Source: Bacteroidota bacterium
GTDB lineage: Bacteria; Bacteroidota; Ignavibacteria; Ignavibacteriales; Ignavibacteriaceae
NCBI GenBank assembly: GCA_021824145.1
Contig: JAKALM010000020.1
Span: forward strand, 1-46,825
Direction: 5' to 3'
DNA length: 46,825 nt
Positions 1 to 10,311 of this stretch are shown piece by piece (the first letter of the stretch is position 1; every line of letters begins with the position of its first letter). A program made the translations under genes and the position numbers. Under the pieces are notes generated by a model. That model ran no database searches. It was not told where the DNA came from and worked only from the letters and a program-made list of their open reading frames with translations.

Positions 1-803
1 TCAAAAACATTTTGCTGTGCGGCAGCGTTCAAGCTGTCTAATCTATATTGCGTTAAAAAGTTTGAAGACTCATCCGGCTTAACGAGACTTAAATTTACAG
101 TATCAATAATGACTGTTTGAGTATCTTCTATACCGCAGAGAGAGTAAAGGTGTGCAAGTCCGCTTTTGTAGTTTTGCCAAGTCTGATCCATATCTATCGC
201 TTGAGTTTTCATTTCAATCTTAAGCTGAAGATAATCAGAAGCTTTTGCGTAGCCCTTTTCAACAAGGTTGCCGGTAATCTTTAACTGGCTGTTAAGATTG
301 CCTTCAATACTTTTTGAAAGATTATAAAGCTGAAGATACTGAAGTGTATTTAGATACTGATCGGTTACCTGCTTTTTAAGATCATGTTTTTTTACTTCGG
401 ATTTATTTTCATAGCTTTTACCCTGAATTTGTCTCTGTTCATTTAAAGCATCAAGCAAACCGCCGTTAAAAATATTTTTCTCAAAATTAATTTGGGCAGA
501 GTACAAACCGCCGTTCGTAACTGCCGCATCATATCCAATTGCATTTGGGGCCGGGTTGGGGGTAAACAAAACTCCGCCATTATTAAAGTACGGCGAAAAC
601 AGTAAATTGCTCGACAGGTAAACTTGAAAAGCTGAGTTCTGTGCGTAGTCTAATTTCTTTTGGAGGTTATTTATTAAATATAAATTGCCAAAATCTTTAA
701 TAACCGGAGAGTTATTCATCGCCTTGTCTATAAAGTAATTTAGATTGTACTGCGCAAAGGCGAAATTACTAAGTAATGCAAGTATTAATATTATTTTCCG
801 CAA
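1..803 (-). CDS. TolC-family outer membrane efflux protein, N-terminal part (runs off window)
   Basis: The open frame runs off the left window edge, leaving about 267 N-terminal codons. The product starts with a signal peptide (LRKIILILALLSNFAFA, then QYNLNYFIDKA), followed by long alpha-helical stretches rich in Gln, Leu and Asn (for example QVTDQYLNTLQYLQLYNLSK and LVEKGYAKASDYLQLKIEM). This is the pattern of the outer membrane efflux protein repeat, in which a TolC trimer forms the exit duct of a type I or RND exporter. In-frame stops lie just upstream (about 822-827), and the only reasonable start is TTG at 803, with no evident SD. It is separated from the PepSY gene by a terminator, so it is probably its own unit; the partner pump lies outside the window. 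The family call is fairly sure, the substrate unknown. Confidence 0.75.
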   Translation of the reverse strand, partial: MRKIILILALLSNFAFAQYNLNYFIDKAMNNSPVIKDFGNLYLINNLQKKLDYAQNSAFQVYLSSNLLFSPYFNNGGVLFTPNPAPNAIGYDAAVTNGGLYSAQINFEKNIFNGGLLDALNEQRQIQGKSYENKSEVKKHDLKKQVTDQYLNTLQYLQLYNLSKSIEGNLNSQLKITGNLVEKGYAKASDYLQLKIEMKTQAIDMDQTWQNYKSGLAHLYSLCGIEDTQTVIIDTVNLSLVKPDESSNFLTQYRLDSLNAAAQQNVF

Positions 804-856
804 CGTATTGAATAAAAAATTTTATTATTTACAAGTTATGTTAATTTGTTAAGTAG

Positions 857-879
857 AGGATTTTTTATAAAAAAATCCT
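857..879. repeat. AT-rich perfect hairpin upstream of the TolC-type gene
   Basis: A 10-bp inverted repeat (AGGATTTTTT and its complement) encloses a 3-nt loop. It lies about 54 nt upstream of the presumed TTG start of the TolC-type gene. It has no T-tract on the minus strand beyond its own arms, so it is not an obvious terminator for that strand. It could be a leader structure or simply AT-rich sequence. Confidence 0.3.
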
Positions 880-913
880 GGAAAAAGATTTCGTCTTCTA
901 TGTTCTGTATTAT

Positions 914-955
914 AAAAGAAATAAGGGCAAGGTGTTTAACGTCCTTTGCCCTTAT
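914..955 (-). terminator. Rho-independent terminator after the PepSY-like gene
   Basis: A 10-bp stem (ATAAGGGCAA at 921-930 pairing with TTGCCCTTAT at 946-955) has a 15-nt loop and is followed on the minus strand by the T-rich tract TTCTTTTATA. It begins 16 nt after the stop codon of the PepSY-like gene and separates that gene from the downstream TolC-type gene. Confidence 0.7.
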
Positions 956-971
956 AACCTAGTGAGTACAA

Positions 972-1472
972 TTAATCTCCATCGCTTTCTTCTGCAGACG
1001 CTTTTTGGCTCTTAATAAGCTTTCCTTCTTTATTGAGAACTACAACGAATTTACCATTCTTAGCGGTAATAGCCAGTTCATAAGTTACTTTTGAACCGCT
1101 GATATTTCTTTCTGCTTTTTCAATCTTTGCACTAGGAAATTTCTTTTCGATTAACTTCATCGACATTTTGGGCAGTTCGGAGGATGGGATTGTCTCTTCA
1201 ATCTCGGCAACTTTTCCGGTTGCCGTATAGAGTAGGTCTCTATTTACATTTCCATCTACGCTTTCGATTTCGAAGTACGTCTTACCCTTTTCGGTTTCTG
1301 TGCTCATTCCTTTAATTACAGCTTTTGGATATGTTTTGTGGAATGAGTTCAATACTGCTTGCGGTACATTTTTCTTCGATATCTTTTTATCTTGTGCAAA
1401 CATTCTTGAATATATACCGATAAGAGAAATTGAAAGGACAAAACATGCTAAAAAAATTTTTAATAATTTCAT
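972..1472 (-). CDS. Exported PepSY-like domain protein
   Basis: The 166-residue product has a signal peptide (residues 1-27, ending MFAQ). Two successive repeats resemble the PepSY-like/DUF2874 fold: VPQAVLNSFHKTYPKAVIKG followed by KTYFEIES, and LPKMSMKLIEKKFPSAKIEK followed by VTYELAI. Such small periplasmic proteins are often linked to two-component systems in the FCB group, but their molecular role is mostly unknown. The start is ATG with a well placed SD (AGGAG). A predicted response-regulator operator lies 52 nt upstream, matching sites before the receptor and the regulator genes, so this gene probably belongs to the same regulon. A terminator follows. The C-terminus is acidic (EESDGD). 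Family fairly sure, function inferred. Confidence 0.75.
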   Translation of the reverse strand: MKLLKIFLACFVLSISLIGIYSRMFAQDKKISKKNVPQAVLNSFHKTYPKAVIKGMSTETEKGKTYFEIESVDGNVNRDLLYTATGKVAEIEETIPSSELPKMSMKLIEKKFPSAKIEKAERNISGSKVTYELAITAKNGKFVVVLNKEGKLIKSQKASAEESDGD

Positions 1473-1531
1473 AATCGCTCCTAAATTAATTTTATAATCA
1501 ATATAACTAATCTAAAGAACGATTATGAAAT
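1466..1531 (-). repeat. 12-bp inverted repeat enclosing the 5' leader and start codon of the PepSY-like gene
   Basis: ATTTCATAATCG occurs at 1466-1477 and its exact complement at 1520-1531. On the minus strand the downstream arm contains the ATG start codon, while the SD lies in the 42-nt loop. Folding would sequester the start codon. The upstream arm overlaps the predicted operator, so the match may instead be a by-product of the ATGAAA motif. Confidence 0.4.
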
Positions 1532-1541
1532 CAAGATGAAA
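1509..1541 (-). promoter_or_regulatory. Predicted response-regulator box and -10 of the PepSY-like gene
   Basis: On the minus strand TTTCAT-N5-TTTCAT occupies 1541-1525, followed 10 nt later by the -10-like hexamer TAGATT (1514-1509). The tandem hexamers have an 11-bp period, one helical turn, as in OmpR-family operators. The same box with the same spacing to TAnnTT stands before the TonB receptor and the response regulator. The hexamers and spacing are seen directly; regulator identity is inferred. Confidence 0.6.
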
Positions 1542-1555
1542 GAATTATTTTTTCA

Positions 1556-2542
1556 TCAATTCCTTTCGAGTATTAGCACGCCAAAGCTTTTAGCATTATT
1601 TTTTTCTTCAAGCATGCCAGGTAAATAAATATTATGGTTCTTCAAATCGATCTCCATCGTTCTGCAGCCTTGCTGAGTCGCAACATTATCAATTACTTTA
1701 AATTCTTTTGGAGATACTTCGTGAATAACAGTTAATGTCCCCTCGCCATTAGAACTAAAAGCAAAATTAGTTTTAGGATCAAACCGGCAAGCATCTACAT
1801 GTCCACCAATCTGAAGAGAGGTGATTACCTTACCTGTTTTAGCATTACTAATTACCATCAAATTATTACGGCAGCCTGAAAATAATATATCATGTTTTAT
1901 ATCGATAGCTAAGCCGGCTGGTCCTTTCCCCGGTGTAATTGACCATTCTTTTACAATCTTTAACGTATTTGGATTGAATTCTACAACTTGATTTTTATCC
2001 TCAATATTCAAAAACATTGAGCCTTTACCGTTAGTTACGCAAAATTCCGGACTGCCTTCAAGAGGAATAGTTCCCACAATTTTATCGGTTTTAGCATCAA
2101 TTGCAGTTATGTTTGAACTCCTTCCATTTATCGTAAAAACTCTTTGTGAGAAGGGGTCGTAAACAATTCCGTCAGGATTTTTTCCGGTTACGTGAATTTC
2201 TGCAATCTTTTTTAAAGTTTTTAAATTGAAGACTGTAACCGTGTCGCTTCTTCCGTTGCTGATAAATCCCTTTCCTAAGGCATCGTCAAAAACTTCACCG
2301 TGAACTCCGCTAAGTCCGTCAATTTCGCCAACAAATTTATTTGTTTTTAAATTGATTACGTGAATACGGTCGGCATGAGAAATGTAAAGTCTTTGCATTG
2401 GTTCATCAATGGAAGCGTAATCCCACCAGCCTTTGCCGCCAATATTTACAGTTCCCGAAATTTTATATCCTGAATTTTGCGCAAACAAAACAATTGGTAT
2501 TATGATAAAAAATGAACAAAGTGTTATAATAATTTTTTTCAT
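1556..2542 (-). CDS. YncE-family YVTN beta-propeller, exported
   Basis: A 328-residue protein with a signal peptide (residues 1-21, ending LFA). It is built from about seven repeats of the form xVxVIDxxTxKxVxxI, for example RIHVINLKTNKFVGEIDG, TVTVFNLKTLKKIAEIHVTG and NITAIDAKTDKIVGTIPL, the 40-residue YVTN beta-propeller pattern. Family members bind ligands or partners in the periplasm, and no enzymatic residues are evident. It begins 41 nt after the TonB receptor stop, so the two are probably one transcript and act on the same substrate. The pairing recalls YncD/YncE of Escherichia coli, although the receptor here is of a different subfamily. Family sure, ligand unknown. Confidence 0.8.
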   Translation of the reverse strand: MKKIIITLCSFFIIIPIVLFAQNSGYKISGTVNIGGKGWWDYASIDEPMQRLYISHADRIHVINLKTNKFVGEIDGLSGVHGEVFDDALGKGFISNGRSDTVTVFNLKTLKKIAEIHVTGKNPDGIVYDPFSQRVFTINGRSSNITAIDAKTDKIVGTIPLEGSPEFCVTNGKGSMFLNIEDKNQVVEFNPNTLKIVKEWSITPGKGPAGLAIDIKHDILFSGCRNNLMVISNAKTGKVITSLQIGGHVDACRFDPKTNFAFSSNGEGTLTVIHEVSPKEFKVIDNVATQQGCRTMEIDLKNHNIYLPGMLEEKNNAKSFGVLILERN

Positions 2543-2583
2543 ATTAATTCTTGAACAATAAAAATAATTTTTAACTAAGTAAG

Positions 2584-5001
2584 TTAATCATTTGAAGAGC
2601 CGTTATTGTCGTCATGTTCTTGCTGATTATCTTCTTTATAATTGTTGAAATTATATTTAAAATCAAGCATCACAATAGGAGCTTTTCTATAAAAATGATT
2701 ATAATTATAAAAGTCTAATCCCTGCGAAGTAAACTCACGTTTTCCTGTTTTAAATAAATCATTTATTTGTAAAGTAAGAGATAATTTTTTTTCTATTATA
2801 TCCTGTTTTATACCAAGATCTGTGGTAAAATATCCATTCCAAGTACCTTGTGCAGTAACTGAAGGGCTATAATATCTTGTATTTATTTGAAGTTCGGTTG
2901 ATGAAGTTATTTTAAATCCATTATTATTTTTTATACTCCAGTCAAAACTTTCTCTTGCAAATGATTGATCAAACAAAGCACCACTAATTTTGTAATCATA
3001 AAGATCACCCATTAAATTAAAATCCCAAATTTTAATTGGATTAAACATTAACATGAACTCAGCGCCAATTGATTGGTCTGTACCAACATTAGCGGTTGTT
3101 CTCAGTGTAACATTTTCTGCATAAACAGAATTTACATCTTCCATTTTATTATGTGTAAAGCGATAATAGAAATCTGTTGAGAGAGAAATTTTACCTAAAA
3201 AAGTTTGAAATCCAATTTCATATGAATCTATAAGCTCTGGCACTAATGAAGGATTACCAATACGAACATTATTTGCATCAAACCATGTATAAAACGGCTC
3301 AAGGTCTCCACCATCTGGCCTTTCAATTCTTCTCGTGTAACTAGCCATTATTTGCGTACCACCAGAAAAGTTATACGATGCATGAATTGATGGAAAATAG
3401 TCCCATCGATTTAGAGAAAACTGCTGATTTGTTTCGTCTAATTTTACAAGTTGATAAGTATATTCTGTACGAAAACCGATTTGAACTCCTAAACTATCCC
3501 ATTGTTTGGAAAATATTGAATATGCTGCAAACCTTGTTCTATTAAAATCATTTGTATGACTATACAATGGTTGGAATAGATAGTTACCACTTACTGTGTC
3601 AAACATATAAAGTTGATTTACATCTTGATATACTCTGCTAAAAAATTCTGAACCAGCAGAAAATTTTTCAAATTTATTAAAAGGTAATGTGTAATCAATT
3701 TTTCCTCTTAATTCGTTTTGCGGTCCTAATTCTGTTGTCTTTGTTCCGCTTATTTGATCTATGCTTTCTAAAGCAGCATTTAATGAAGCTTCATTTGAAT
3801 TGTTGTGTCTAAAAGAAAGCTCGGCATTTATTTCATGTCCATTATTGTTAAACTTATGAGTATAATCAGTATTTAATTCGTAAAAAGTTCCAGAATGATT
3901 ATGGTTGGTATTATCGATATAAAAAATTTTTTGAGGTTCCGAATATGACCATTGCATATAATTTAAAATAGAATTTCTATGGAATTCTCTATTTCCGTAT
4001 CTGCCTCCAATCGAAAGATTATCAAAATCGCTAAAGTCAAAATCAAGACTTCCTTGAATTCCAGCCATAATTCGTTGCCAGGTAAAAGCCCCGTTAGAAT
4101 TAAGAAATGAAGTATTATCTCCGAGGATAAATTGTTTTTCCTGTTGATTAGAGCCTGGAAAAGTTCTACGATTAAAATTTACTCCAAAGTTATAATTAAC
4201 CGATGAAGTTCTATATTGGAAAATAAAATTACCGCCGTACTTATCATTTAATCCGCCGGTTAAATCAGCCATTCCACTCAAACCAAGATTGGAATCTTTT
4301 TTAAGAATTATGTTTATAATTCCTGCTGTTCCGGTTGCATCATATTTAGCAGATGGATTAGTCATAATTTCTATATTTTTTATTGAACCTGCTGGTATTT
4401 GCTGAAGTGCATCTTGAGCGCTTAAAACAGAGGGACGTCCATCTATTAAAACTGAAAAATTTGTGCTGCCTCTTAAACTTACAGTTCCATCTACATCAAC
4501 ACTTACCGAAGGAACATTTTGAAGAATATCTGCGGCAGTGCCAGATACAGCTGTTTGCATTTGACTGACATCTATTACTTTTTTATCTAGTTCATAAGAA
4601 ATTGGAGATCTTTTACCTTCAACCACAACATTTTGTAAAGTAATTGCTGTAGACTTTAAGTAAATTGTTCCTAAATCCTTTATTGGATTTTTACTTGTTA
4701 GGGAAATATTTCTGACAACTTTCTTTTCATATCCAACAAACTGAATATTTAGAATATATTTTCCTTCCGCCAAATTAGATAAATTGAATTTTCCATCTGA
4801 GTTAGTGACAGAACCACCAACTTGTTTATTATTTTGATTAAATAAAATAACATTGGAAAATTCAATCGGCTTTTTTGTGGATAAATCCAACACTCTTCCA
4901 ACAATCGAACCTCGATTATTTTCATTTTGTTTTTGCTGACTATACGAAATGTTAATAAAGATAAGAAGTAATAAAGAAACAATGAATGAACTTTTAATCA
5001 T
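2584..5001 (-). CDS. TonB-dependent outer membrane receptor with N-terminal carboxypeptidase-regulatory-like domain
   Basis: An 805-residue protein with a signal peptide (1-21). A CarboxypepD_reg-like domain (about 31-115, GSIVGRVLDL to DLGTIYL) is followed by a plug domain (about 135-233, with AADILQNVPSVSVDVDG and VLIDGRP) and a long beta-barrel of the OMP_b-brl type to about residue 790. Such receptors use TonB/ExbBD energy to import a bound ligand. The last residues (HDDNNGSSND) form an acidic, polar tail instead of ending at the aromatic last barrel strand. It is first in a likely operon with the YncE-like propeller. A predicted response-regulator operator lies 68 nt upstream of the ATG. 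The substrate cannot be read from the sequence; a metal chelate or cofactor is possible. Confidence 0.88.
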   Translation of the reverse strand: MIKSSFIVSLLLLIFINISYSQQKQNENNRGSIVGRVLDLSTKKPIEFSNVILFNQNNKQVGGSVTNSDGKFNLSNLAEGKYILNIQFVGYEKKVVRNISLTSKNPIKDLGTIYLKSTAITLQNVVVEGKRSPISYELDKKVIDVSQMQTAVSGTAADILQNVPSVSVDVDGTVSLRGSTNFSVLIDGRPSVLSAQDALQQIPAGSIKNIEIMTNPSAKYDATGTAGIINIILKKDSNLGLSGMADLTGGLNDKYGGNFIFQYRTSSVNYNFGVNFNRRTFPGSNQQEKQFILGDNTSFLNSNGAFTWQRIMAGIQGSLDFDFSDFDNLSIGGRYGNREFHRNSILNYMQWSYSEPQKIFYIDNTNHNHSGTFYELNTDYTHKFNNNGHEINAELSFRHNNSNEASLNAALESIDQISGTKTTELGPQNELRGKIDYTLPFNKFEKFSAGSEFFSRVYQDVNQLYMFDTVSGNYLFQPLYSHTNDFNRTRFAAYSIFSKQWDSLGVQIGFRTEYTYQLVKLDETNQQFSLNRWDYFPSIHASYNFSGGTQIMASYTRRIERPDGGDLEPFYTWFDANNVRIGNPSLVPELIDSYEIGFQTFLGKISLSTDFYYRFTHNKMEDVNSVYAENVTLRTTANVGTDQSIGAEFMLMFNPIKIWDFNLMGDLYDYKISGALFDQSFARESFDWSIKNNNGFKITSSTELQINTRYYSPSVTAQGTWNGYFTTDLGIKQDIIEKKLSLTLQINDLFKTGKREFTSQGLDFYNYNHFYRKAPIVMLDFKYNFNNYKEDNQQEHDDNNGSSND

Positions 5002-5053
5002 AAAGTATTTTTAGAATTTTAGAAAATTGGTTTCAAGATTTTATTAAATGAGA

Positions 5054-5086
5054 AAATTACTTTTGTTATATGAAAATAATATGAAA
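5054..5086 (-). promoter_or_regulatory. Predicted response-regulator box and -10 of the TonB receptor gene
   Basis: TTTCAT-N5-TTTCAT on the minus strand at 5086-5070 is followed after exactly 10 nt by TAATTT (5059-5054). The arrangement matches those before the PepSY-like and response regulator genes. A possible independent promoter, TTGTCA (5131-5126), 18-nt spacer, TATTAT (5107-5102), lies just upstream; if that one is used, the box would fall downstream of its start site and could act in repression. Confidence 0.6.
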
Positions 5087-5209
5087 ATTCTTTAGAACGG
5101 TATAATAAAAGTAATATTATGAATTTGACAAATTTGATGGTTAAAGAGTTTAAGAATTAAATTTGAAAATCATGAGTAAAGTTACTTTATAATTTTTGTT
5201 TGTTCTAAA

Positions 5210-6592
5210 TTAAACATTAATAACTGGTAAGCTAACTACAAAAATTGTCCCCTCTTCAACCTTGGTTTCAACTTTAATTTCACCTTTATGAAGTTCAACT
5301 ATTTCTTTTGCAATTGCTAGACCTAATCCGCTGCCATTTATATCAGAACGGATTTCATTTGATCTGTAAAATCTATTAAAAATATAAGGGACATCATCTT
5401 TAGATATTCCGAATCCAGAATCTTTTACGGTTATGTTAACTTTGCTATCAAAAACTTTTTCTATCTCAACTGAAATACTAGAATTTTCATTTGAATATTT
5501 GATTGAATTATCTAAAAGATTGGCAAATACACTTTTTAATTTTTCTTTATCTGCTTCAATTTCTATTGCTTCGCTTAATAAAAGATTAATTTGTATATTT
5601 TTTTTCTTAGCGAATTGATTCATCGATTGAATACATTCTATTAAAAGCTCATCAATTCTAAATCTATTCAAATTTAATTTCATTTCTGAAGAATCAAGCT
5701 TGGCAATTGTTAAAAGAGAATTTGTCAAATTTGTTAAATCATCAATTTCAGTTAAAGCAATTTTTATGCTTTCCTTAGACTCTGGATCAATTAATTTCTT
5801 TTCCAAAATCTCAAGTTCGGTTTGAATAACAGTAAGCGGAGTCCTTATTTCGTGGGATGCATTCGCTATAAATCTTTTTTGATTATTAAACGCATCATCA
5901 ATTCTTTCAATCATCTCATTCAAAGTTTCTCCAAGTGCCCTTACTTCATCTTTTGCTTTCGGTAATTCAAGACGTTTATCAAGATTTTTAATTGAAATTT
6001 TCTTAGCTGTATTAGACATTTTAGCTATTGGCTTAAATGCCTCTTTTGAAATAAAGTATGCTGAAATACCTGTTATAATTAATCCTGCTGGTATAATTAT
6101 TAAAAAAAGATAAAATAACCTATCAAGGTCATCATAAACATCTTTTACTGACGATGCTGTTTCTAAAACATAAATTGAATCATTTTCAGTCTCGAACTTA
6201 CTCCATAAAATATGATATTTTTGATGAGCAATTTTTTTTCTTTCAATTTCATTTTTTTTATCAACCACAGTATTGATATTTGATATTGCAATTTTAGAAA
6301 GCAGTGAATCCTTTATTATTATATTTCCTTTATCATCAAATAGTTGAAATCTTTCTCCAACTAATCCTTTACCTCTAATTGAAGTTAAAGTTTTTAAATC
6401 TAAACTTGAATTATCATCAATTTCATCTTCAATTTCCGTTTGTAATGAAATCGCATAGTTTTTAAGATTTGTATTTAACCTAAAAAAATTTGTTTCTTTT
6501 ATGTTGTTGTAAATAATAAATGCAAACACTATCAGCATTATTCCAAACACAATTGTGTATGCTAAAATTATTTTAAATTTGATTGAAAGCAT
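5210..6592 (-). CDS. Sensor histidine kinase, membrane, HAMP type
   Basis: The 460-residue protein has TM1 (about 5-28), a periplasmic domain of about 130 residues, TM2 (about 158-182) and HAMP (183-236). The HisKA box has phospho-accepting His247 (NASHEIRTPL). The HATPase domain has an N-box (N358 to S367, NLLDNSIKYS), G1 (391-396, DSGFGI), F-box (FNRFYR, 405-410) and G2 (420-426, GSGLGLA). All catalytic boxes are intact. It autophosphorylates and passes phosphate to the response regulator encoded 30 nt upstream in the same operon. The periplasmic signal is unknown; the PepSY-like protein or the receptor's ligand are candidates (inference). The length is normal for an EnvZ/CusS/PhoQ-like kinase. 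Confidence 0.92.
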   Translation of the reverse strand: MLSIKFKIILAYTIVFGIMLIVFAFIIYNNIKETNFFRLNTNLKNYAISLQTEIEDEIDDNSSLDLKTLTSIRGKGLVGERFQLFDDKGNIIIKDSLLSKIAISNINTVVDKKNEIERKKIAHQKYHILWSKFETENDSIYVLETASSVKDVYDDLDRLFYLFLIIIPAGLIITGISAYFISKEAFKPIAKMSNTAKKISIKNLDKRLELPKAKDEVRALGETLNEMIERIDDAFNNQKRFIANASHEIRTPLTVIQTELEILEKKLIDPESKESIKIALTEIDDLTNLTNSLLTIAKLDSSEMKLNLNRFRIDELLIECIQSMNQFAKKKNIQINLLLSEAIEIEADKEKLKSVFANLLDNSIKYSNENSSISVEIEKVFDSKVNITVKDSGFGISKDDVPYIFNRFYRSNEIRSDINGSGLGLAIAKEIVELHKGEIKVETKVEEGTIFVVSLPVINV

Positions 6593-6622
6593 TTTTTTAG
6601 AATTTTGAAATAACTGCTAGAA

Positions 6623-7300
6623 TTAAGGATTTTCTTTTTTAAAGATATAGCCTGATCCTCTAATAGTGTGAATTAGCGGCGTGTTAAAATCCTTATCAAT
6701 CTTTTGCCGAAGAAATTTTACAAATGACTCAATTACATTACTACGAGGGTCAAAATTCATATCCCACAAATGTTCCGAAATTTCTTCTCTGGATAATATC
6801 TTATTCGGATTCATCATAAACAATTCAAGCAGTGCAAATTCTTTTGTTGAAAGCTGAATTTCTTTTCCATCTCGATACGCAATATGTGTATTTAGATCCA
6901 ATTTTAAACCAAATTTTTCCAGAATTGCAGATCTAATTTCCTTACCTCGTCTCAATAAAGCGCGCATTCTTGCAAGAAGTTCACCAAGATGAAAAGGTTT
7001 GGCAAGGTAATCATCTGCACCGCTGTCTAAACCTTTAATTTTATCAGAGACATCATCAAGCGCTGTTAACATTAAAATTGGAGTAAGAATTTTTTGCTTG
7101 CGAAGATTAGCACACGTCTGCCAGCCATCTTGCTTGGGAAGCATTATATCAAGAATAATCAAATCGTAATTATTTATTGTGGCAAATTCTTCGCCTTTAA
7201 CACCGTCGAATGCAGTATCAACAGCATAACCTTCTGCTTTTAATCCTTTACATAATGCAGAAGAAATTTTTTTATCATCTTCAACTAAAAGTATACGCAT
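6623..7300 (-). CDS. OmpR/PhoB-family response regulator
   Basis: The 225-residue protein has a receiver domain with acidic pocket E7/D8/D9, phospho-acceptor D51 (LIILDIMLP), T79 and K101 (LAKPF), then a winged-helix Trans_reg_C domain (about 128-222, ending IRGSGYIFK). It is a DNA-binding transcription factor for the adjacent histidine kinase. The ATG start lies 36 nt from a TTTCAT-N5-TTTCAT box, so autoregulation is likely. Identical boxes precede the TonB receptor and the PepSY-like gene, which are probable targets. OmpR-family proteins bind tandem direct repeats with an 11-bp period, which fits. Confidence 0.93.
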   Translation of the reverse strand: MRILLVEDDKKISSALCKGLKAEGYAVDTAFDGVKGEEFATINNYDLIILDIMLPKQDGWQTCANLRKQKILTPILMLTALDDVSDKIKGLDSGADDYLAKPFHLGELLARMRALLRRGKEIRSAILEKFGLKLDLNTHIAYRDGKEIQLSTKEFALLELFMMNPNKILSREEISEHLWDMNFDPRSNVIESFVKFLRQKIDKDFNTPLIHTIRGSGYIFKKENP

Positions 7301-7320
7301 TACAATTTAATGTTTTTACA

Positions 7321-7353
7321 AAAATAAGAAGTAATTATGAAAAGAGAATGAAA
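7321..7353 (-). promoter_or_regulatory. Predicted autoregulatory box and -10 of the response regulator gene
   Basis: TTTCAT-N5-TTTCAT on the minus strand at 7353-7337 is followed after 10 nt by TATTTT (7326-7321). With the next two bases the hexamer reads TATTTTTG, which fits the TAnnTTTG -7 element described for Bacteroidota. The predicted transcription start lies about 14 nt before the ATG. Confidence 0.6.
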
Positions 7354-7371
7354 AGATTTATTTCAATTGAA

Positions 7372-7801
7372 TCATCTTGCCAGTCTTTTGAAAATAATTT
7401 TCTCGGTTGATTGTGAAATTGTAAATATAAACACCACTTGCATACCATCAGTGTCCCATTCTAGCTTATATGGACCTTTTTTCTGATCGCTTTCATAAAG
7501 CTTTTTGATGTGATGCCTAAGAATATTAAAAATATCAGTCCGGATGTATGCATCTTGATGAATATTATAGCTTATTGTGGTGCTGTTATTAAATGGGTTG
7601 GGATAATTTTTATATAATTCATAAAAAAGTCGTTGCTGATAATGTATCATTTAAGTTTATTTCTCCACCTCTTTGAGCCATTATATCTAATCGCTGATCT
7701 GTTGCCGTATTTGCTATAGCAAATCTAATAATTTCCGGGTACCAATCCTTATGTTCTCTTTTTGTTAATTCACAAACGCCAACAAAATAAGGTATCACCA
7801 T
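7372..7801 (-). pseudogene. Frameshifted remnant with a type IX secretion (type A) C-terminal sorting domain
   Basis: Two overlapping frames join into one protein remnant. The upstream part ends NLNDTLSATTFL and stops. The next frame continues YELYKNYPNPFNNSTTISYN, the typical T9SS type A sorting tag, and ends FKRLAR. The break coincides with an A6 run (7623-7628; T6 on the coding strand), where a one-base change restores one frame. The tag itself looks damaged: the segment after WDTDGMQV lacks the usual SGVYFY turn. There is no full-length protein upstream. It is the decayed 3' end of a secreted or surface protein gene whose cargo domain is not identifiable. Confidence 0.65.
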
Positions 7802-8047
7802 TGCAGTGCAGCTTAGGCGTTTATAGCTGCAATATATAGTTAATATTAGTCCCTCGCTAAAACTTCAGGCATAACAGTATCATCTCCTTTGACAAGTACT
7901 TTTGTACTAAAGCTAGCGATCGTTGTTGAAAATTATTTATTCAAATATTTTTCACTTGAAGTAGGAAAAATTCTATAAATTATATTCCGCATAACATCAT
8001 AATACGAATTCAGAATATTCAAAAACACATTTTATTTCTATATAACT
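7802..8047 (-). other. Intergenic decayed sequence upstream of the sorting-domain remnant
   Basis: No intact gene is visible. In one minus-strand frame, two short open stretches separated by a single TAA are readable: VMRNIIYRIFPTSSEKYLNK, then FSTTIASFSTKVLVKGDDTV continuing MPEVLARD and a stop at 7846-7848. They look like further relics of the degraded secreted protein, but no family is recognisable. Part of the segment may hold the end of the rhodanese transcript; no hairpin terminator was seen. Confidence 0.35.
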
Positions 8048-8593
8048 TCATTTTTCAGTAGGATATCCTTTCCCCTTCCAATCTTTGGCAAAAGAATTGG
8101 GCAAATAAAGTGCTTTTACATTTGTAAAACCCATTTCTTTCAAAGTCTTAAAAGCTGGACGAATATTGGGGCAATCATTCCATGGACAACATCCGCAATA
8201 AATTATTATCGGCTGATTTTTCTTTATTTTTTTTGCCTCATTTTTTAATGCTTGAATACCATTCGTTCTTGAAGAAGGTCCAATAAATTTAGATCCAGGA
8301 ATATGTTCTTGGTTGTATAAAAAATCAAAACCGACTTGCAGTAAAATTGGCTTATTACTTTTTGCAGAGGATAGTTCTTTTGAAAGTTCCCCGGCTGTGA
8401 TTATTTGATTTATTGTCCATGGATCAGATGGTTTTGTACTTTCTGATTTTATATTTAAAGATTGTGTGTCTTTCTTTAACTGTTTTAGTGAACTTAATTG
8501 TGCAAATGAATAATTAGTTGAAATTATTATTAAACTAAGTACTAAACATATATAAATTTTTTTCCTCAATAAAAATGATTTCTTTTGAAACAT
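8048..8593 (-). CDS. Exported rhodanese-like domain protein
   Basis: The 181-residue protein has an N-terminal signal sequence (about 1-32, ending NYSFAQ) and a single rhodanese domain (about 60-175). The presumed active-site Cys is C133 in IIIYCGCCPWNDCPN; C135, C136 and C141 make an unusually Cys-rich loop. HIPGSKFIG precedes it, as in rhodaneses. The family moves sulfane sulfur or binds thiols; with this loop a metal- or thiol-binding periplasmic role is also possible. It follows the NlpC/P60 gene by 126 nt, so cotranscription is uncertain. Domain sure, substrate unknown. Confidence 0.8.
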   Translation of the reverse strand: MFQKKSFLLRKKIYICLVLSLIIISTNYSFAQLSSLKQLKKDTQSLNIKSESTKPSDPWTINQIITAGELSKELSSAKSNKPILLQVGFDFLYNQEHIPGSKFIGPSSRTNGIQALKNEAKKIKKNQPIIIYCGCCPWNDCPNIRPAFKTLKEMGFTNVKALYLPNSFAKDWKGKGYPTEK

Positions 8594-8719
8594 AAAAAGC
8601 CCTTTCGGAATACTTAAAAAAGTTGAATGTCTATATTAAAATAGTTCAAACATTAAATTTAAATATACTTTTAAATCACAATTTATTTAGTGAAGAGATA
8701 TGGATTAAGTTTGAGATGA

Positions 8720-9448
8720 TTAATTATTTCCCGAAGTTGTTCCGGATTCTAAAGAATTTTCGATTCTTCTTCCGCCCATATATCTTTTTGAATAATAAGC
8801 TTCGTCCAATGAAGAAACTGTTACGCCATTTCTTGAGCTAGCATGTGCAAAGAGATGATCTCCCAAGTAAATACCTACATGTCCTGGTTTTATACGTCGT
8901 CTTGTATTGAAAAAGACCAAATCGCCAAATTGTAAATTATCAATATTGTTGATTGGTTCGCCCTCATGATATTGTTCTCTAGCGCTTCTTTCAAGATCGA
9001 CTGATAAACTTTTTTCATATACCGCTTTTGTAAAAGCCGAACAGTCAATGCCTGATTTAGTGTTTCCGCCGTATTTGTATGGAGTATCGAGATACTTAAT
9101 TATTTCCATCAGCATTTTGTCTCTTTCGTTAATTTGTTCCGGCGACAAATCAGTTTTGGGACTATTGCCATATTTTTTCAAAAGAGAATTTACATCAATT
9201 TTATTCGTACTGGGAGGAATGTCGTCAATATCAGAAGTGTCAATATCAGATTCAGTTGTATCAATTTGCTGGTTTACTACAACATTATTATTTCCATTTT
9301 CATCACTAAATCTTACACTAGATTTATTTTCTTCTGAAGTTTTTTCAGAATTTCCATACCGCAATGAATTGGAAGAAGCAGCACATCCGTTATAAAGGAC
9401 TAAACTTATTGTGCATATTAAAAATACTATCAGAAATTTCAACCGCAT
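8720..9448 (-). CDS. NlpC/P60 family peptidoglycan endopeptidase, probable lipoprotein
   Basis: The 242-residue protein has a hydrophobic N-terminus ending in NGC (C22), a plausible though non-canonical lipobox because Tyr is at -3. A low-complexity acidic linker (about 35-80, many Asp, Ser and Thr) leads into an NlpC/P60 domain (about 105-230). The catalytic triad is visible: C136 (SGIDCSAFT), H190 (KPGHVGIYLG) and H202 (LFAHASSRNG). The family cleaves D-Glu-diaminopimelate bonds in peptidoglycan, here probably from the inner face of the outer membrane. It starts 8 nt after the sigma factor stop, so it probably shares its transcript. Confidence 0.85.
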   Translation of the reverse strand: MRLKFLIVFLICTISLVLYNGCAASSNSLRYGNSEKTSEENKSSVRFSDENGNNNVVVNQQIDTTESDIDTSDIDDIPPSTNKIDVNSLLKKYGNSPKTDLSPEQINERDKMLMEIIKYLDTPYKYGGNTKSGIDCSAFTKAVYEKSLSVDLERSAREQYHEGEPINNIDNLQFGDLVFFNTRRRIKPGHVGIYLGDHLFAHASSRNGVTVSSLDEAYYSKRYMGGRRIENSLESGTTSGNN

Positions 9449-9456
9449 TTTTTACG

Positions 9457-10311
9457 CTAGCCCAAATATGCTTTCAAATTTTTACTTCTGGAAGCATGCC
9501 TTAGTCGGCGAATCGCCTTCTCTTTAATTTGTCTAACTCTTTCTCTCGTCAAATTAAATTTTTCTCCAATTTCTTCTAATGTTAAGGAATGTTCTTTATT
9601 TAACCCGAAATATAATTTTATTACTTCAGCTTCTCTTTCGGATAGAGAAGATAATGCTCTTTCTATTTCGGTTTTTAACGATTCAGTCATAAGTCCATAA
9701 TCTGGATTTGGCTCTTCTTCATTTTCAATAACATCAAGCAATCTATTTTCTTCACCTTGTGCAAATGGTGCGTCCATAGAAACATGACGGCCTGAAATTT
9801 TAAGTGTATCTGCAACTTCGTTAATATCCATATCCAGTTCTTGAGCAAGCTCAGCGGCGCTTGGCTCTCTTTCAAATTCTTGTTCTAAATTGCTGTAAGC
9901 TTTTCCAATTTTATTTAAAGCTCCTACACGATTAAGTGGAAGCCTGACTATTCTGGATTGTTCAGCTAACGCTTGAAGTATCGATTGGCGAATCCACCAG
10001 ACAGCATAAGAAATAAACTTAAAACCTCTTGTTTCATCAAAGCGTTTAGCTGCTTTTATTAAACCTAAATTGCCTTCATTAATCAAATCGCCAAGTGATA
10101 AACCTTGGTTTTGATATTGCTTGGCAACGCTTACGACAAATCTTAAATTTGCTTTTGTTAATGTTTCTAAAGCTGCTTGATCACCTTTTTTTATACGAAC
10201 AGCAAGTTCAATTTCATTTTCAGGTTTTAATAATTCAACTTTACCAATTTCTTGCAAATATTTATCAAGTGATTGGCTTTCACGATTTGTAAACTGTTTG
10301 GTAATTCTCAC
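9457..10311 (-). CDS. rpoD: Primary RNA polymerase sigma factor (sigma-70 family, short form)
   Basis: The 284-residue protein has region 1.2 ([15 protein letters not shown]), region 2 ([18 protein letters not shown], then [19 protein letters not shown] and [10 protein letters not shown]), region 3 and region 4 ([15 protein letters not shown], with helix-turn-helix [20 protein letters not shown]). Region 1.1 is absent, as in Bacteroidota and Chlorobi primary sigma factors of about 287 residues. It directs core polymerase to housekeeping promoters. The start codon is GTG, supported by GAGGTG a few bases upstream. It sits 15 nt after a microcompartment vertex gene and 8 nt before the NlpC/P60 gene, an odd setting for a housekeeping sigma factor. 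Confidence 0.92.

Follow-up and report, generated by a model that had tools for sequence, protein, structure and literature searches.

Three transcription units in a 46,825-nucleotide contig of an Ignavibacteriaceae member of the Bacteroidota (contig JAKALM010000020.1 of assembly GCA_021824145.1) are each preceded by the same putative promoter-operator. The contig, C2 in our numbering, belongs to an assembly of 3.48 Mb and was analysed whole; it is called the window here. The element consists of a tandem hexamer, TTTCAT-N5-TTTCAT (the tandem), which together with a TAnnTT box 10 nucleotides (nt) further on forms the composite site. The units encode an OmpR/PhoB-family response regulator with its histidine kinase, a TonB-dependent receptor with a beta-propeller protein, and a PepSY_like protein. 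The neighbouring response regulator (6623-7300) very probably uses the three sites as direct-repeat operators and acts as an autoregulated activator of all three units. In our best model, an OmpR/PhoB-type system with a WalK-like sensor would control the PepSY_like protein, RND efflux and the TonB receptor/propeller pair. The original prediction, made from the letters of the window, was right in this main point and understated the reach of the regulon.

Composite sites in the window and the assembly

The window contains three exact tandems and no others, each upstream of an envelope unit on the minus strand and each with its TAnnTT box at exactly 10 nt, at the positions originally given. A mean of 0.14 exact tandems per window was found in dinucleotide-preserving shuffles, none of 100 of which reached three, and this bears out the claim that three matches are improbable by chance. 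With up to two mismatches allowed, 31 matches were found in the window and 34.6 in shuffles; since mismatched matches are no commoner than in shuffled sequence, the tandem is informative in its exact form only.

Exact composite sites in the assembly number four, the three of the window and one on contig C17. The latter (G000:C17:11862-11894, locus L053) precedes by about 213 nt a TonB receptor of 724 residues, whose best NCBIfam matches are siderophore and heme receptors, all far under cut-off, and it is likely a distal member of the regulon. The C17 receptor is followed by a gene that by eye resembles a methyltransferase, and a paralogous regulator-kinase-propeller set is found close by.

Conservation of the site with the regulator

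Among 164 genomes of the order, 18 hold an ortholog of the regulator (protein search, at least 66% identity; the next best match has 58%), the closest named relatives by regulator being bins labelled Bacteroidetes, Ignavibacteriaceae and Ignavibacteriales. The site is kept before orthologous units, as predicted: it heads the transcription unit of the regulator in 18 of 18 holders, with 15 exact tandems and three with one mismatch. The regulator comes first in its unit in 13 holders, with the tandem 46-63 nt before the start (11 exact, two with one mismatch), and behind a propeller or receptor gene in five, where the tandem is upstream of that gene (four exact, one with one mismatch). The unit head was judged from gene spacing in five holders (G026, G028, G031, G032, G139). 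Receptor and PepSY units of the relatives also bear the site, including some on other contigs. Altogether, the 18 holders have 40 composite sites and the 146 other genomes of the order have 15, with one and four matches of the backwards control, respectively.

The survey of the class comprised 391 genomes, in which a close regulator was defined as a best match of at least 60% identity (E<=1.2e-84) and lack of a match as none at E<=1e-74. The exact composite is present in 29 of the 35 genomes with a close regulator, and these 29 span nine families; it occurs in 11 of the 18 genomes whose best match has 53-59% identity and in 15 of the 338 without a match (Fisher P 2e-26 for 29/35 versus 15/338, uncorrected for kinship). 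The class total is 85 composite sites versus 10 matches of the backwards control. The G+C-rich genome G418 has three sites, where about 0.0004 would be expected if bases were independent and had the G+C of the fetched region, and in G+C-rich genomes the box is frequently TATCTTG. Conservation in relatives, on which the original prediction had been staked, was thus found, with the site tracking the regulator across the 391 genomes. Chance occurrence in A+T-rich DNA was ruled out by this conservation, by the exact spacing and by sites in regions of 50-61% G+C. As judged from these comparisons, the three window sites are conserved promoter-operators.

For 53 sites outside the order, genes were labelled by similarity to proteins of the window and its relatives and with a home-made PepSY profile, using mechanical open reading frame starts. 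A labelled same-strand gene start is in reach at 28 of them: TonB receptor at 10, PepSY at nine, regulator at four (one just a 37% relative), propeller at three and TolC at two. One PepSY head, in G376, escapes the script because its start was called too far upstream. In G189 and G281, the site precedes a row of TolC, adaptor (MFP), RND, regulator and kinase genes. Bins named KSB1, Latescibacterota (locus of 67% G+C) and Caldithrix carry the regulator at 69-76% identity and an exact tandem behind the kinase.

Architecture of the operator and proposed mechanism

We analysed 42 heads already shown to hold a site, leaving out the regulators of Cal145, KSB148 and Lat149 and genes inside units. TTTCAT tops all hexamers repeated with N5, occurring in 39 of the 42 heads, a description and not a frequency since the heads were preselected for a site; the one-base-shifted TTTTCA follows with 27. 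The TTTCAT spacer is 5, and any other spacer from 0 to 20 was seen in at most two heads. The TAnnTT box stands at exactly 10 nt in 41 of the 42 sites, and in 33 of 34 among those found independently of the box. The commonest sequence of the 42 sites is TTTCATCTTATTTTCAT.

This layout matches, at the level of sequence, that of OmpR/PhoB-family operators over the -35 region. In flavobacteria, TAnnTTTG serves as the -7 box of sigma-A (PMC9723704), and the PmrA and PhoP operators have a hexamer-N5-hexamer layout as well (PMC3973317, PMC3335776). Directly oriented PhoP boxes activate when they lie 11-13 nt from the -10 and fail to do so when placed out of phase, and PhoB is described as acting likewise over the -35 (PMC3335776). 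In the window system, direct-repeat half-sites about 11 bp apart stand before the targets and before the regulator itself, at a fixed distance from the putative -10 box, and the regulator, with receiver and Trans_reg_C domains, adjoins a histidine kinase. An activator over the -35 is proposed because of this spacing, the TAnnTTTG box, the PmrA/PhoP layout and the activating PhoP boxes.

In the proposed mechanism, the kinase would sense an envelope signal via its WalK-like extracytoplasmic domain. A pair of regulator protomers would occupy the two TTTCAT half-sites in head-to-tail arrangement, separated by one helical turn (11 bp). With its downstream edge 10 nt away from a -10/-7 box of the Bacteroidota type (TAnnTTTG), the operator would replace the -35 element, and because of this placement we infer that the phosphorylated dimer recruits RNA polymerase. 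The regulator would switch on three units: that of itself and the kinase, that of the TonB receptor and propeller, and that of PepSY_like, which in relatives extends over TolC, MFP and RND genes. The PepSY_like protein would probably act as a periplasmic modulator or feedback subunit.

Alternative explanations

The genome holds 62 matches to the regulator, and the C17 composite site is near a second regulator-kinase-propeller set, so that another, paralogous OmpR-type regulator might bind the sites while the neighbouring one is a bystander. We regard this as quite unlikely, since the site co-occurs across the class with the ortholog of the neighbouring regulator, and the presumed recognition-helix segment (SNVIESFVKFLRQKI), near-constant across 20 aligned orthologs, differs in the nearest own paralog. 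The promoters of the second-best regulators of seven genomes had no exact tandem, with a one-mismatch tandem over the start codon in G026. Paralogous receptors (45-53% identity; 22 homologs tried, one without upstream sequence) showed no site of up to one mismatch in 21 cases. That the shared operator marks a two-component envelope regulon, the central claim of the original prediction, is thus upheld by its conservation, by its tracking of the regulator and by the lack of an exact site at these seven paralogous regulators and 21 paralogous receptors. The exact tandem was also absent from the loci of 15 regulators of 44-56% identity (L153-L167, with L168-L208 outside the scan). At locus L152 of an Ignavibacteria bin, whose regulator has 55% identity, an exact tandem lies behind the kinase, and TTTCAT is arrayed more densely, with a TATATTTTTG stretch, at 5752-5800, perhaps representing a sister specificity.

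The rigid 10-nt distance of the box in 41 of 42 sites would also suit a site recognised by an alternative sigma factor, with the tandem as -35 and TAnnTT as -10. This is highly improbable: an identical hexamer pair at an 11-bp period suits a head-to-tail dimer, flavobacteria have TAnnTTTG as the -7 box of sigma-A (PMC9723704), and the two-component genes travel with the site. A repressor sitting over the -35 region and blocking RNA polymerase is unlikely; the site does overlap the expected -35 position and the sign of regulation is not readable from sequence, but the PhoP boxes and PhoB described above (PMC3335776) argue for activation.

Several observations weigh against assigning the sites to the neighbouring regulator. 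The assembly holds seven exact bare tandems versus five backwards control matches and hence no genome-wide enrichment of the bare tandem. In the whole-genome scan put forward with the original prediction, it is the composite alone that stands out, and the remaining three bare tandems all lie within open reading frames. The 15 composite sites in order genomes outside the holders occur without a regulator at threshold; two of them (G007, G116) are cluster fragments. Five genomes of one genus that lack the close regulator have in common one unexplained conserved composite site (TTTCATAATTCTTTCAT; G063:C58, G065:C60, G066:C1, G067:C1, G068:C387). The G066 copy, the only one looked at, precedes a 290-codon frame. 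In the class, 15 genomes still have sites without a regulator at threshold, among them G426, a cluster fragment. Six of the 35 close-regulator genomes are without an exact composite site; G031 has an exact tandem without TAnnTT, G390, G302, G211 and G203 have imperfect sites with one or two changes, and G185 has none in the heads examined. Outside the order, 25 of the 53 sites have no labelled gene start in reach, and some sites there are therefore chance matches or belong to unknown targets; two of the 25 are divergent from the regulator. The bins named KSB1 and Latescibacterota have no coding-strand site within 450 nt of the regulator, and the tandem behind the kinase of the Latescibacterota bin is not followed by TAnnTT. 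Likewise, the Caldithrix-named Cal145 has no site within 450 nt of the regulator, and a one-mismatch site heads its row two genes upstream.

Gene content of the cluster

In order of minus-strand transcription, the cluster consists of response regulator, kinase, TonB receptor, propeller, PepSY_like and TolC genes, the last cut by the contig end (Table 1), and the gene identities first read from the translations were confirmed by domain matches.

Table 1. Features of the cluster in the window
Feature	Position	Strand	Basis
Tandem operator, promoter of the response regulator/kinase unit	7337..7353	-	exact match
Putative -10 (-7) box TATTTT(TG), 10 nt past operator	7321..7326	-	sequence
OmpR/PhoB-family response regulator (receiver + Trans_reg_C)	6623..7300	-	PF00072, PF00486
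Sensor histidine kinase (HAMP, HisKA, HATPase_c); predicted WalK-like extracytoplasmic domain	5210..6592	-	domain matches, model
Tandem operator, promoter of the TonB receptor/propeller unit	5070..5086	-	exact match
Putative -10 box TAATTT, 10 nt past operator	5054..5059	-	sequence
TonB-dependent receptor, CarboxypepD_reg domain (OMP_b-brl_3)	2584..5001	-	domain matches
YncE/YVTN-type beta-propeller, 41 nt past receptor; signal peptide by eye	1556..2542	-	domain match
Tandem operator, promoter of the PepSY_like unit (relatives: PepSY_like-TolC-MFP-RND)	1525..1541	-	exact match
Putative -10 box TAGATT, 10 nt past operator	1509..1514	-	sequence
PepSY_like (PF11396, DUF2874) protein; predicted DUF2874-type fold	972..1472	-	Pfam, model
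RNA hairpin, PepSY_like/TolC gap	923..953	-	folding
TolC-family outer-membrane efflux protein, cut by contig end; relatives: MFP, RND next	1..806	-	domain match

The PepSY gene had been predicted as a target by itself. It is indeed headed by the operator, and this claim has to be amended since in relatives the PepSY unit continues into TolC, adaptor (MFP) and RND pump genes and the operator heads an RND efflux unit, making the regulon wider than claimed. No own RND pump was found in the window genome in a search with the partial G001 pump, the only type tried, at E<=1e-100. Identity to G001 is 97% for the partial TolC and 85% for the regulator, an unevenness within the cluster that hints at recombination. 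A short frame at 7372-7650, adjoining the regulator promoter, is perhaps a gene remnant; it weakly resembles (21.5 bits, cut-off 600) the C-terminal region of a type IX secretion system (T9SS)-dependent protein.

Sensor kinase, PepSY_like protein and intergenic hairpin

The AlphaFold model of kinase residues 1-240 (pLDDT 75, 12 sequences) resembles the extracellular domain of WalK (4ywz, TM 0.64 by target), and the extracytoplasmic domain is thus predicted to be WalK-like. The model of the PepSY_like protein (pLDDT 82, six sequences) resembles periplasmic DUF2874-type proteins (4hbr, TM 0.71 by target; 4k61).

A heavy-metal system of the CzcR/CopR/CusR kind with a CusA/CzcA pump was rejected as an identification: models named CzcR/CopR (regulator, TIGR01387, 252.5 of 279.2 bits), CztS/SilS/CopS (kinase, TIGR01386, 209.9 of 292.55) and CusA/CzcA (pump of the relative G012, TIGR00914, 521.9 of 701.45) were matched, with every curated cut-off missed. 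A metal signal is unsupported, since no His, Cys or Met column is conserved at 70% within kinase residues 30-165 in 38 kinases. The RND TM4 motif was found in 11 of 17 RND sequences of relatives, in all 11 as Asp-Asp, a form which we take to mark drug-type RND pumps; six gave none.

A hairpin is present in the PepSY_like-TolC gap in all six clusters folded, of 12 PepSY clusters, with z scores of -2.9 to -4.9 (-3.5 for the window stretch). Its sequence is near-identical in G001 and differs in G012, G028, G005 and G008. We call it a hairpin and not a terminator because an intrinsic-terminator scan of positions 1-9500 found none though the stretch folds well. Its recurrence in this gap in five relatives suggests an attenuator or stabiliser, which may govern how much PepSY_like is made relative to the pump.

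Relation to known systems and significance

The mechanism class is already known, while operator, regulon and distribution appear undescribed within the literature searched. The tandem, in four spellings, was not found in the open-access papers searched; those joining Ignavibacteria, two-component, regulon and binding motif yielded, as judged by title and the beginning of the abstract, CRP/FNR regulons and a metagenome screening method only. In a hand alignment to PmrA, Asn188, Arg198 and Arg210 are seemingly kept, Thr187 is Ser here, and His193, His195, Asn196 and Glu199 would be Phe, Lys, Phe and Gln. The Bacteroides locus BT2063-BT2065, compared below, is presumably XusABC.

The PmrA/BasR box of Klebsiella pneumoniae has the same hexamer-N5-hexamer plan, and an OmpR/PhoB-family dimer reads it head to tail, as proposed here; its half-sites are CTTAAT/CCTAAG in place of TTTCAT (PMC3973317, PMC4660055). 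The architecture I box of Salmonella PhoP is a direct repeat of a hexanucleotide, spaced by 5 nt, that covers the -35 at roughly one turn from the -10, and is found also at the promoter of the regulator itself, as in the window system; its half-sites, however, are (T/G)GTTTA, and the distance to the -10 is 12 nt (11-13) instead of 10 (PMC3335776).

The gene neighbourhood has its own counterparts. In DbfQRS of Vibrio cholerae, a small secreted PepSY-type gene lies near a histidine kinase/response regulator pair, as here; DbfQ binds the sensor domain of its kinase, and such neighbourhoods are widespread (PMC12714742). The window gene is third after the kinase, within the four genes allowed for a DbfQRS-like secreted PepSY protein, with secretion judged by eye. 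PF11396 PepSY_like is its sole Pfam match, and its predicted fold is of the DUF2874 type; the DbfQRS study used the PepSY family IPR025711. The regulon described here also differs in having efflux and TonB genes. HaeRS of Porphyromonas gingivalis, from the same phylum, has a DUF2874 gene in the vicinity of its regulator and kinase genes, and the promoters bound by the regulator are its own and those of TonB-receptor and efflux genes (PMC3764172). It is a hemin system for which the accessible portion describes no tandem operator, and is likened by description. BT2063-BT2065, a xenosiderophore locus likewise compared by description, brings together a PepSY-domain protein, a DUF4374 protein and a TonB receptor; it differs as an iron-starvation locus of three genes without a two-component system or RND pump (PMC10434189). 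Since DbfQ binds its kinase sensor and HaeRS has a DUF2874 neighbour, we propose by analogy that the PepSY_like protein is likely a periplasmic modulator or feedback subunit of the kinase.

A class-wide, perhaps cross-phylum regulon in which one WalK-like kinase and one OmpR-type regulator couple an outer-membrane importer, formed by TonB receptor and propeller, to RND efflux via one rigid promoter-operator, with PepSY_like feedback on the kinase as a DbfQ-like ligand sensor, is a tentative and rather doubtful extension of this proposal. In such a regulon the PepSY_like protein would be made in excess, because the hairpin separates it from the pump genes, and if this were true the PF11396 family would gain a signalling function. 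A sequence-defined operator makes the regulon readable from uncultured genomes, links a hitherto uncharacterised sensor with genes of efflux and import, and renders the signal and the role of PF11396 proteins directly testable.

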